Of a DNA stretch of 24,795 nucleotides, positions 2,717 through 24,795 are shown piece by piece (position 1 is the first letter of the stretch; every line of letters begins with the position of its first letter). The notes below the pieces were generated by a model. It was not told where the DNA came from, did no database searches, and saw only the letters and a list, made by a program, of their open reading frames with translations. The DNA is taken from positions 1-24,795 of IMG/VR virus record IMGVR_UViG_3300026097_000098. One strand, given 5' to 3'. Source of the stretch: a virus. The position numbers were made by a program, and so were the translations under genes.

Positions 2717-4159
2717 ATGTCAGGCTATACACGCCAATCTGTTGCAGATGTGGTACCTACGGCGGTAGTACGTGCAGCGCCTATCAACGCAGAGTATAAC
2801 AAACTCCGTGATGCTTTCACGTTTAGCTCTACAGGTACTACAGGACACAAGCACGACGGTACAGCAGATGAAGGCTCCTATGTACCGCTGATTGCTGATC
2901 TTGATGGTAAGAACAAAGTAGAGGTTATCCAGGCTAACAACCGCATCGGTGTTTGGATTGAAGTGGGTGGCACATCTACTGAGCAGTTCCGCTTTCAGGA
3001 CGGACTGATTGTACCTGTACTAGACAACGACATTGACCTTGGTACTTCTTCATTGGAGTTCAAGAATGTTTACGTAGACGGTACAGCATTCATTGATACA
3101 GTAAGTGTTGGTGATAACGACTACACTACTATCACTGATAACACTTACGCTGTTGCAGCGGGTGATCTACTCTTTGATGTAGCAGGTAACATCAACTTAG
3201 ATGCTGATGGCGGTAATGTAGTACTTAAGGATGGTGGCACTACGTATGCTACATTTACAAGTAACTCAGGTGATCTTACACTAAAGAGTGGTACTACTAC
3301 TGCTGTAACATTTACAGGTGCTAACGCTGACCTTGCTGGTACACTTGATGTAACAGGTAACGCTACATTTGATAGTGATGCTACCATTGATGGTAACACT
3401 ATTATTGGTGCTACGAACACGAACACTGTAGCGGTTAACGCTAAGATTACTACGGCTCTTGTACCTACTACTAACGGTGTTAATGCGCTGGGTGGTGCTT
3501 CTGCTTACTGGGGTGACAGCTTCCTAAAGAGTGTAACTACCACAGGTAACGTTACTATAGGCGGTAACATTACAGTAAACGGCACTGCTGATTTTACTAA
3601 CACTACACTAGAGAACGTAAACGACCCGACTACTGCACAGCAAGCAGCCACAAAAAACTATGTAGATACAGCTATCAACAATCTTATCGCTGGCGCTCCT
3701 GCCACACTTGATACGCTAGACGAGATTGCTGCAGCTATCAATGACGATGACAATGTTTACACTACCCTAACAAACAGCATCGCAACTAAGCTATCACTAT
3801 CAGGCGGCGCTATGACAGGCGCTATTGCTATGGGTGGCAATAAAGTAACGGGTGCAGGCGCACCTACTACAGGTTCTGACCTCACAAACAAAACGTATGT
3901 AGATAGTATTCTTGGTTCAGCAACCGCAGCAGCAGATAGTGCAGCAGATGCACAGAAGCTAGCTATCAACCCAGAAGATAGTCAATATACTCTCTCTGAC
4001 AGTGTGACAACAGGTTTCTCTGCTTTGCACTATTCAGAGAAAGCATCAGAGACTTATGCTAACCTTCTAGCTCTTGCTAGTGTAGTTAGTGCTACTGTAG
4101 GCGACTATGGTTTTATCAACGCCGATCCAGACTCAACGGCAGATTACGGAGCATTATAA
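2717..4159 (+). CDS. Tail fibre protein with YVD-type repeats
   Basis: 480 residues, preceded by the ribosome binding site AGAGGAAAAC. The N-terminal 40 residues look like a particle-attachment segment. Residues about 60-270 are Gly/Asp/Thr-rich with many short beta repeats (for example GDLTLKSGTTTAVTFTGANA), as in trimeric fibre shafts. From about residue 310 comes the fibre unit TKNYVDTAINNLIAGAPATL, ending near residue 390 with SDLTNKTYVD, a motif widespread in phage fibres. The C-terminus ends rather abruptly with DYGFINADPDSTADYGAL, a phrase that in other marine phage fibres often continues into further repeats (recalled). The stop is followed directly by the next start (TAAATG). It probably attaches the rest of the receptor-binding apparatus to the tail. 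Confidence 0.72.
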   Translation: MSGYTRQSVADVVPTAVVRAAPINAEYNKLRDAFTFSSTGTTGHKHDGTADEGSYVPLIADLDGKNKVEVIQANNRIGVWIEVGGTSTEQFRFQDGLIVPVLDNDIDLGTSSLEFKNVYVDGTAFIDTVSVGDNDYTTITDNTYAVAAGDLLFDVAGNINLDADGGNVVLKDGGTTYATFTSNSGDLTLKSGTTTAVTFTGANADLAGTLDVTGNATFDSDATIDGNTIIGATNTNTVAVNAKITTALVPTTNGVNALGGASAYWGDSFLKSVTTTGNVTIGGNITVNGTADFTNTTLENVNDPTTAQQAATKNYVDTAINNLIAGAPATLDTLDEIAAAINDDDNVYTTLTNSIATKLSLSGGAMTGAIAMGGNKVTGAGAPTTGSDLTNKTYVDSILGSATAAADSAADAQKLAINPEDSQYTLSDSVTTGFSALHYSEKASETYANLLALASVVSATVGDYGFINADPDSTADYGAL

Positions 4160-8669: not shown

Positions 8670-9809
8670 ATGGAAGCATTTCGAATTAAGAACGGCATTA
8701 CGGCCACACGGTATTTAGGTAGTAACGGTACTGAGACTGCTGGTAGTGTAGGGTACGCCCTATCTGAGGCATCTTACAATAGTGTTAGCTTTAGTGTGAC
8801 TACTCAAGATACATTGCCTCGTAGAGCAATTTTCAACAATGATGGTACTAAGATGTATATGCTTGGGGCCTCTAATACGAGTGTATATCAGTACTCTTTA
8901 TCTACAGCTTTTGACGTTAGTACTGCTTCTTACGACTCTGTTAGTTTTAACGTAGGTAGTACGATGGCGGGGCCTTTTGACGTTACTTTCAACAATAATG
9001 GCACTAAGATGTATATACTTGCATTTGACACTGATGCCATTCACCAATACACTTTATCTACAGCTTTTGACTTAAGCACCATTTCATATGATAATGTTAG
9101 TTTTAGTGTAGCTAGTCAAGATACTTTGCCTCGTGGATTAACTTTTAACACTGATGGTACTAAGCTGTATTTGGTTGGGGATACTAATAATAGCATATAT
9201 CAGTACTCTTTATCTACAGCTTTTGACGTTAGTACTGCTTCTTACGACTCTGTTAGTTTTAGTGTAGCTACTCAGGATACTAGTCCGTCAGGTATAGCCT
9301 TTAATACTAATGGGTTCAAGATGTATGTGGTAGGGTTTGCTTACGACAGTGTATATCAATACAGCCTAACTACAGCTTTTGACCTAAGTACAACTTCTTA
9401 TGATAATGTTAGTTTTAGTGTGGCTAGTCAGGACACTACTCTTTATGGCTTGGCTTTCAACAGTGCTGGCACTAAAATGTATATACTTGGTGGTGCAACA
9501 GACACCATATACCAATACTCTACAGCACTCCTAACACAGACCCTAGACCTTTCCACTGGTACTACATTCAGCTTCACCCCTAGCGGTGCAACTACAGTAT
9601 CCTTCACTAACCCACCAGCATCAGGTAATGCTATAGGTTTCTCTGTAGAGATTAACGGTAACGGTAGTGCTATCACATGGCCTGACAGTGTGAAGTGGCA
9701 TGAGGCTACAGCACCAGTAGCTACAGCAACAAAAGAGTTATACACGTTTGTTACGACTAAGGGTGGCACAACGTATTACGGCAAGAAAGCCGCTGAGGGA
9801 GTAGCGTAA
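8670..9809 (+). CDS. Fibre/adhesin paralogue, five exact 52-residue repeats plus intact scaffold domain
   Basis: 379 residues, preceded by the strong ribosome binding site AGAGGAG. Residues 1-33 are a leader. Five propeller repeats start at residues 34, 86, 138, 190 and 242, all exactly 52 residues apart, with consensus SYDSVSFSVASQDT, then DGTKMYILG, then IYQYSLSTAFDVST. Residues 292-379 are an uninterrupted scaffold domain (LDLSTGTTFSFTP, SFTNPPASGNAIGFSVEING, ITWPDSVKWHE, TKGGTTYYG), in contrast to the two upstream paralogues where a propeller splits it. At DNA level the repeats are very similar, indicating recent duplication. The stop overlaps the next start (TAATG). Likely a virion adhesin subunit. 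Confidence 0.7.
   Translation: MEAFRIKNGITATRYLGSNGTETAGSVGYALSEASYNSVSFSVTTQDTLPRRAIFNNDGTKMYMLGASNTSVYQYSLSTAFDVSTASYDSVSFNVGSTMAGPFDVTFNNNGTKMYILAFDTDAIHQYTLSTAFDLSTISYDNVSFSVASQDTLPRGLTFNTDGTKLYLVGDTNNSIYQYSLSTAFDVSTASYDSVSFSVATQDTSPSGIAFNTNGFKMYVVGFAYDSVYQYSLTTAFDLSTTSYDNVSFSVASQDTTLYGLAFNSAGTKMYILGGATDTIYQYSTALLTQTLDLSTGTTFSFTPSGATTVSFTNPPASGNAIGFSVEINGNGSAITWPDSVKWHEATAPVATATKELYTFVTTKGGTTYYGKKAAEGVA
8769..9524 (+). repeat. Five-repeat propeller module 4, 156-bp period
   Basis: Five units of exactly 156 bp, the last one partial. A 66-bp stretch starting at 8884 is repeated without a mismatch starting at 9196, exactly 312 bp away, so the latest expansion copied a two-repeat unit. Confidence 0.8.
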
Positions 9810-24059: not shown

Positions 24060-24147
24060 TGGAGGTCGCTGGAGGAATTGAACCCCGTGGCATCCATCCC
24101 ACTGTTTAACGCCAAGAGTTTAGAAGACTCATGTGGGGGCAGCAACC
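24060..24147 (-). tRNA. Atypical tRNA-like element with encoded CCA (UCU anticodon-like loop)
   Basis: 88 bases between reductase and glutaredoxin. The 5' end GGTTGCT pairs over all seven positions (one G-T) with AGCGACC near the 3' end, which is followed by TCCA. Before it lies a T-arm-like hairpin, GGGG-TTCAATT-CCTC. A hairpin GAGT-CTTCTAA-ACTC has a seven-base loop identical to that of many tRNA-Arg with anticodon UCU, and GTGG-GATGGATG-CCAC could be a long variable arm. No normal D arm can be drawn: the bases after the acceptor are GCCCCCACAT, which can pair with GTGGG instead. It may be a degenerate or unusual tRNA, or a tRNA mimic acting as a processing signal. Identity uncertain. Confidence 0.45.
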
Positions 24148-24237
24148 ATATAATAAGCAGTTTAGACACTTGCTCAGGTGCAGAAGACCGAGGTGTATGA
24201 AGGTGACAAGACCAGCACAGGGACGTTCGGTCATAAC

Positions 24238-24795
24238 TTATGTCAGGTCAACAATCTCACAGCTATCACCAGAACATGCTAGTGTCTGACTTCCTGCCGT
24301 GTTGTCCTCAGCTTCATACTCTGATAGCTTAGCCCAGTCAATAGCTGTAGGCATACAAGATAGCAGTGTCTCATAGTCTGACTTACCGCACTCCTGATAT
24401 GGCGCTTGCTGGTACGTATGCTCATTGTAGGGCAAGAAGCTAACACCTGACATCTCATCAAAGTGTTTGTACACGAATGCACCTACCTCAAACCACTCAT
24501 CTGCTTTGACGTTGATAGTCACAGAGGGTTTGTGTTCACACCAGTTACGTTGATAAGCAAGCCACATCTCTAGCTGTTCAATGGCAGACATGTCAGACGT
24601 AGTAACTGCACCCGTAGGAGCTTTCATAGGGAAGCTGAACACTGTTGTGCTATCAGGCTTCATTACGTCAGGCTCGTTAGGGATACCCTGGTCAACCATA
24701 AACTGTGTCAGGGGGTCTTTGTTGTCACCTCTGACGGTTCGGATATAGTGGGCGCTGTGTCGGGCGTGAATGCCTGAAGCACTATCAACAAGCTG
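24238..24795 (-). CDS. nrdJ: Class II (cobalamin-dependent) ribonucleotide reductase, C-terminal part
   Basis: The frame is open to the right edge, so the 5' part is outside; 185 residues are visible and the Met at 24699 is internal. The visible start reads LVDSASGIHARHSAHYIRTV, followed by DNKDPLTQFM, then STTVFSFPMKAPTGA, QLEMWLAYQRNWCEHKPSVT and VYKHFDEMSGVSFLP, all hallmarks of the monomeric adenosylcobalamin-dependent triphosphate reductase (Lactobacillus RTPR type). The tail has C-S-G-D-S-C, the CxxxxC pair that relays electrons to the active site. The enzyme makes deoxynucleotides for phage replication and needs vitamin B12 from the host. It heads the - strand unit seen here; glutaredoxin follows after the tRNA-like element. 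Confidence 0.93.
   Translation of the reverse strand, partial: QLVDSASGIHARHSAHYIRTVRGDNKDPLTQFMVDQGIPNEPDVMKPDSTTVFSFPMKAPTGAVTTSDMSAIEQLEMWLAYQRNWCEHKPSVTINVKADEWFEVGAFVYKHFDEMSGVSFLPYNEHTYQQAPYQECGKSDYETLLSCMPTAIDWAKLSEYEAEDNTAGSQTLACSGDSCEIVDLT

Follow-up and report, generated by a model that had tools for sequence, protein, structure and literature searches.

The window, that is, the whole stretch of 24,795 nucleotides analysed here, carries on its minus strand a tRNA-like RNA of 88 nt (24060-24147, by direct read of that strand), which is very probably a functional phage-encoded elongator tRNA-Arg(UCU) of a non-cloverleaf family, reading AGA and probably also, by wobble, AGG. With the family a new structural class likely joins the natural tRNAs, made up of genuine elongators for Arg, Tyr and possibly Cys whose D-arm has given way to a pseudoknot threaded about the anticodon arm. 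With a relocated G18-G19-N20 in this pseudoknot, many unrelated phages would supply infected bacteria with a tRNA L built via a different topology. This explanation is preferred on the grounds of homology, covariation, the conservation of anticodon and identity bases, the association with tRNA arrays, and the absence of the canonical isoacceptor alongside.

The RNA in the window and its fold

The minus-strand read (GGTTGCTGCCCCCACATGAGTCTTCTAAACTCTTGGCGTTAAACAGTGGGATGGATGCCACGGGGTTCAATTCCTCCAGCGACCTCCA, 24147 to 24060) bears out all the features that the earlier note had described. The CCA, the T-arm with a normal T-loop and the anticodon hairpin (UCU in the loop CUUCUAA) are present, the D-arm is missing, and the gene lies, as claimed, between two other minus-strand genes, one for a class II ribonucleotide reductase (RNR), which ends at 24238, and one for a glutaredoxin. 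The C-rich run thought able to pair with GTGGG is indeed complementary to it (CCCAC/GTGGG), and this pairing covaries in the family. The 7-bp acceptor stem is there as well, but RNAalifold on the family extends it to 8 bp with G8:C77 and leaves a T-stem of 4 bp. Of the note's "novel minimal tRNA" the first half is the best fit; "minimal" was wrong for an RNA of 88 nt whose D-arm is replaced by a pseudoknot. The RNA has the acceptor stem and 3′ CCA of a functional tRNA, and its 7-nt anticodon loop (CTTCTAA) combines U33 and a purine at position 37 with a sense anticodon.

Standard annotation overlooks the gene. ARAGORN calls no tRNA at this site, the tRNA model RF00005 does not match the RNA, and an Rfam scan returns nothing at gathering score, the best sub-threshold match being tRNA-Sec (RF01852; 23.8 bits against a gathering score of 47, E 0.018). 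The covariance-model search proposed in the note thus found no standard cloverleaf. Single-sequence folding gives a stability no better than that of shuffled sequences (z -0.56), by a method that is uninformative for a pseudoknot, and the support for the fold is therefore comparative and not energetic. The nested part of the fold lies 4.2 kcal/mol above the MFE of the window RNA; the proposed fold is the exact MFE in four family members.

The family fold obtained from covariation comprises an 8-bp acceptor stem, a 4-bp T-stem, an anticodon stem of 5-6 bp, a 5-bp helix (P2) and a crossing helix of 3-4 bp. It is the addition of the crossing helix GGC(G)/(T)GCC to P2 that makes this a pseudoknot and not a cloverleaf. 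The parts in the window are as follows.

24060-24147, minus strand: whole tRNA-like RNA, anticodon UCU (Arg), CCA encoded (sequence; hold-out covariance model, 24064-24147; homologues)
24147-24060, minus strand: the same RNA in segments, GGTTGCT-G-CC-CCCAC-ATGAGT-CTTCTAA-ACTCTT-GGCG-TTAAACA-GTGGG-ATGGA-TGCC-AC-GGGG-TTCAATT-CCTC-C-AGCGACC-T-CCA
24140-24147, minus strand: 5′ strand of the 8-bp acceptor stem, GGTTGCT plus G8, which pairs with C77 (two-sided changes in 7/7 pairs)
24133-24137, minus strand: 5′ strand of P2, CCCAC, at the position where a D-stem would start; pairs with 24098-24102
24114-24132, minus strand: anticodon arm, ATGAGT-CTTCTAA-ACTCTT (stem covaries; anticodon UCU at 24122-24124)
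24110-24113, minus strand: 5′ strand of the pseudoknot helix, GGC(G), crossing P2; pairs with 24089-24092
24103-24109, minus strand: A-rich connecting loop, TTAAACA (TTAAA conserved in Arg members)
24098-24102, minus strand: 3′ strand of P2, GTGGG (covariation)
24093-24097, minus strand: ATGGA, proposed relocated D-loop, in which GG would act as G18-G19 and A (24093) as A20
24089-24092, minus strand: 3′ strand of the pseudoknot helix, (T)GCC (covariation)
24072-24086, minus strand: T-arm, GGGG-TTCAATT-CCTC, 4-bp stem and 7-nt loop (alignment, covariation, RNAalifold)
24064-24071, minus strand: 3′ strand of the acceptor stem, C77 plus AGCGACC (covariation, RNAalifold)
24060-24063, minus strand: discriminator U73 and encoded CCA (direct sequence)

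No D-arm is found between the acceptor and anticodon arms, either in the sequence or by RNAalifold on the family. The branch is 8/4 instead of the canonical 7-bp acceptor and 5-bp T-stem, since alignment pair 9-82 is formed in 58/62 sequences and the usual fifth T-stem pair, 66-82, in 3/62.

The comparison supports an 8-bp acceptor stacked with the 4-bp T-stem into a 12-bp branch, the anticodon arm, and P2 in the place of the D-arm, where CCCAC directly behind the acceptor pairs with GTGGG on the far side of the anticodon arm. It also supports the crossing helix, whose two strands adjoin the 3′ side of the anticodon arm and the 5′ side of the T-arm. P2 and the anticodon stem presumably form one stack; the GG that follows P2 would dock with the T-loop as G18-G19, and the next A would stand in for A20. 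The resulting L-like shape could be accepted by ArgRS, EF-Tu and the ribosome. The RNA would be cut out of the RNR-glutaredoxin transcript, charged by the host ArgRS and used in infection, and related genes would play the same role for Arg CCU/ACG and Tyr GUA.

The family, its carriers and covariation

With the window RNA as query, blastn against phage records detected its counterpart in the unrelated Escherichia phage Av-05 (E 2e-5); Acinetobacter and Nitrincola phages were among those with weaker matches. An exact anticodon-arm pattern led to seven contigs in which the RNA is complete and shows compensatory changes (acceptor GGTCACT/AGTGACC, P2 CCCGC/GCGGG). The family was then extended by pattern scans of IMG/VR and by blastn with further members as queries. 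The Av-05 query matched 339 phage records at E < 1e-3, of which 301 are Vibrio phages, mostly near-identical isolates, and IMG/VR yielded dozens of contigs with family members. A descriptor scan of the fetched loci gave 101 distinct RNAs. As a control, the first 206 loci gave 97 matches on real DNA, 0 on reversed DNA and 1, 0 and 0 on three shuffled sets; ARAGORN tRNAs overlapped 0/97 of these members and none in the later loci.

The carriers span Vequintavirinae, Demerecviridae, Straboviridae, Zobellviridae and one 440-kb phage, and include Avunavirus, Hadassahvirus and Melvirus. Among cultured carriers are Aeromonas phage AhSzw-1, in which Arg CCU and UCU forms stand in tandem, Vibrio phage VspSw_1, and Pseudomonas phage Rembedalsseter, which has the Tyr form. 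In the annotated carrier records inspected the gene is never named a tRNA, and where the site is annotated at all it is a "hypothetical protein." In an Acinetobacter tRNA array a member sits unannotated between tRNA-Leu and tRNA-Thr. Five pattern matches (L110, L111, L131, L135 and L144) were set aside as chance. The stretch L104:8930-9020 (also L106), part of a large tRNA array, resembles a tRNA and does not fit the family: it has a normal T-arm and a CCCAGT/ACTGGG pairing, and its anticodon arm is not clear.

No member was found in the plasmids searched. Among bacterial genomes (398 at phylum level and 289 at class level) at least two carry family genes, the search having been filtered. One has a Tyr and a Cys form on the minus strand, separated by half a kilobase with a small ORF in between (L208:9082-9166 and 9598-9688), together with canonical Tyr and Cys tRNAs; the other (L301) has a Tyr form. 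The idea that the family tRNA-Cys was the only Cys tRNA of bacterial genome G343 was dropped, a canonical tRNA-Cys being present. A pattern scan of the genome_contigs set added one further true member, on a contig of a Verrucomicrobia bin with six ordinary tRNAs.

A covariance model (R2) built from 41 members, with the window and its nearest kin left out, finds the window RNA as its sole match in the window (87.3 bits, E about 7e-25). Together with the Av-05 homologue, this indicates that the RNA is not a chance resemblance. With model R1, the family members in phage loci score at least 40 bits and ordinary tRNAs at most 27.

Across 62 Arg-rich sequences the proposed structure pairs 90.1% of cells, against 67.0% after shuffling, with 371 two-sided changes against 105; the covariation score is 0.617, compared with 0.175 for shuffled alignments and 0.07-0.11 for slid structures. 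RNAalifold without a supplied structure recovers the acceptor, P2, anticodon stem and T-stem and adds pair G9-C82. The eighth acceptor pair is G:C in 56/62 sequences, and a two-sided change keeps the pairing in 2. P2 is paired in 97.7% of cells, with two-sided changes such as CCCGC:GCGGG, CCTGC:GCAGG and CCGAC:GTCGG. Pairing of the crossing helix is kept across members as GGC:GCC, GAC:GTC, AGC:GCT, ACTT:AAGT, CCTT:AAGG and ACGT:ACGT, and its two variable pairs (columns 36-63 and 37-62) are formed in 81/83 cells, 34 of them changed on both sides.

Members selected by descriptor had to pair, which makes the covariation, in the Arg-rich set as in the Tyr alignment, partly circular for the acceptor, P2 and anticodon stem. 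Pairing was therefore also scored, at fixed register, in 36 distinct matches picked by loop motifs alone. The acceptor had at least 6/7 pairs in 30 (5.0 expected after shuffling), P2 was complete at 5/5 in 32 (20.8 expected), and the anticodon stem had at least 4/5 pairs in 34 (12.4 expected). At fixed register the pseudoknot of Arg forms exceeded every shuffle and that of Tyr forms did not reach significance, in a test that mixed two registers. The Tyr pseudoknot accordingly rests on the Tyr alignment, in which it is 86% paired with two-sided changes present; MAFFT misplaced P2 in this alignment (61% paired).

Anticodons, identity elements and genomic context

By descriptor, the 101 RNAs have the anticodons UCU (68), CCU (3), ACG (1), GUA (28) and GCA (1). 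One further ACG form lies in L193, and L210 and L211 hold variants with a short P2. In the latter two loci, from Vibrio phages D260 and D119, the family Arg(UCU) is accompanied in the same phage by a second tRNA-like RNA without a D-arm, an Arg(ACG) form whose P2, CCG(T):(A)CGG, is shorter; this may be a variant of the fold. Anticodon-free patterns returned nearly all UCU with a few CCU, ACG and GUA; these patterns favoured GGA and so lean towards Arg, the Tyr forms coming mainly from a Tyr-anticodon pattern. A point against the preferred reading is that AGA, with 29/258 Arg codons, is not dominant in the window.

The loop CTTCTAA is found in 65 and an encoded CCA in 63 of the 68 distinct UCU members. 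All Tyr forms (28/28) have G1:C72 and A73, and the one Cys form has U73; in bacteria G1:C72 and A73 are determinants for Tyr and U73 for Cys (PMC9976931). The Arg forms vary at 73 and 1:72 and have C35 throughout. The discriminator is U in 37/68 UCU members, the window RNA included, which counts against the tRNA-Arg reading, as the E. coli Arg set has A/G73. The base after the GG that follows P2 is A in 71/72 Arg forms and 4/28 Tyr forms, a conservation that is in part ascertainment, as most patterns required GGA; in Arg loci found otherwise it is 13/14. In E. coli the main Arg identity base is A20, which adjoins G18-G19 (PMC9976931). For this reason GGN is read as a moved piece of the D-loop, and GGA in the Arg forms is plausibly a relocated G18-G19-A20.

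Among tRNA-rich loci a canonical tRNA-Arg(UCU) is present in 0/22 with the family form and 23/55 without it (Fisher p 9e-5), the two groups being drawn from different searches and the loci not all independent. For Tyr the trend is the same and not significant (5/20 vs 26/57). Many family members sit within tRNA arrays: a canonical tRNA lies within 300 nt of 44/101 distinct RNAs, on the same strand in 44/44. In a close relative, L040, a canonical tRNA-Arg(UCU) (L040:3571-3647) occupies the identical RNR-glutaredoxin slot. The pseudoknotted RNA was not found at this slot in the nearest RNR-glutaredoxin relatives among IMG/VR and cultured phages, and it probably arrived separately in the lineage of the window.

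The gap appears as a repeated tRNA landing place in three relatives, with the canonical tRNA-Arg(UCU) in L040, a tRNA remnant in L044 (about 3735-3815) and the pseudoknotted tRNA in the window (24060-24147). Remnants of 45-50 nt, made up of an acceptor and T-arm with CCA, also lie about 120 nt downstream of the family tRNA-Arg in L137 (5683-5727) and L138 (10730-10774). A separate element, ACCTRAGCANGTGNNTAAACTGCTYA, follows the RNR stop codon (24153-24180, minus strand) and is conserved in 16 loci, L003, L005, L007, L008, L012, L071 and L084 among them; its outer stem pair covaries (GAGCA..TGCTC / AAGCA..TGCTT), and it therefore looks like a small RNA hairpin.

Phages employ tRNAs to counter defences that cut tRNAs, and the decoy suggested in the earlier note is retained as an unlikely rival, less probable than a novel tRNA. 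Such a mimic would be processed and perhaps charged, and would serve to tie up or withstand nucleases of the host defence, or as a sensor of ArgRS or TyrRS, and not to decode. Its altered elbow could evade enzymes that recognise the D-arm. That the family covers just Arg, Tyr and Cys among 20 isotypes, which would be strange for a general tRNA fold, also suits a mimic; the retention of amino-acid-specific identity bases and intact anticodon loops, the replacement of the canonical tRNA-Arg(UCU) by the family form, and the position of members among ordinary tRNAs in arrays on the same strand, point the other way. It is very unlikely that the RNA is a structured processing or regulatory element (a substrate of RNase P/Z or CCA enzyme) separating the RNR and glutaredoxin messages: the same-strand gap between the two genes would fit, but the family turns up in tRNA arrays and in many further settings, such an element would have no use for the anticodon loop and identity bases, and a pure RNase P/Z processing point, as envisaged earlier, would need no amino-acid-matching anticodon loop, discriminator or 1:72 pair. 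A decaying tRNA-Arg retained by chance is hardly tenable and is refuted for the family, for although phage tRNA remnants exist (downstream in L137/L138 and in the L044 slot), compensatory changes occur in every helix together with a strictly kept anticodon loop in unrelated phages, the hold-out model matches at E 7e-25, neither pairing nor conserved loops have been lost as in a pseudogene, and the stems, whose lack of conservation in relatives had been named beforehand as refuting, are conserved.

Significance and comparison with known systems

The cloverleaf is treated as universal in bacteria, and PMC11551756 states that all known bacterial tRNAs adopt it. A widespread natural exception, if true, would mean that translation can work with a different topology, and the question of what a tRNA must look like could be put to natural examples. 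Because ARAGORN and Rfam miss these genes, tRNA counts for phages fall short, and some Arg and Tyr tRNAs taken to be "missing" are in fact there. The fold could become an orthogonal tRNA scaffold and might give resistance to enzymes that read the D-arm. A published description of such a fold was not found in the open-access papers searched, and as far as these show it appears undescribed for tRNAs of bacteria or phages; neither phages nor pseudoknots come up in a review of non-canonical tRNAs (PMC7609411).

The window RNA shares with canonical tRNA-Arg(UCU) (RF00005) the acceptor, CCA, CUUCUAA loop, T-loop TTCRA, occurrence in phage arrays and the slot seen in L040. It differs in having no D-arm, an 8/4 instead of a 7/5 branch, and P2 with the crossing helix. 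The plant-virus tRNA-like structure BMV TLS-Tyr is pseudoknotted. It can be aminoacylated, as the phage RNAs are predicted to be, and has Tyr identity bases (PMC9976931). Unlike the phage RNA, it forms the 3′ end of an RNA-virus genome, has the eukaryotic C1-G72, is pseudoknotted in the acceptor itself and is no elongator. The D-armless tRNA-Ser of metazoan mitochondria is not known to have a replacement pseudoknot or a relocated GG. It is like the window RNA in lacking the D-arm (PMC7609411) and unlike it in being mitochondrial. The 12-bp acceptor/T branch, here 8+4, is shared with tRNA-Sec (RF01852) and the allo-tRNAs, which have an 8/4 branch (PMC7609411); those are serine-type with a D-arm and a long variable arm, whereas the window RNA has neither and the family is Arg/Tyr/Cys. 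The engineered mini HisT used by evolved E. coli shows that a tRNA lacking the D-arm is acceptable to HisRS, EF-Tu and the ribosome of a bacterium (PMC11551756). Mini HisT is artificial and its D-arm is simply absent, unlike that of the phage RNA; the use of this tRNA-His by E. coli makes a working phage elongator plausible.
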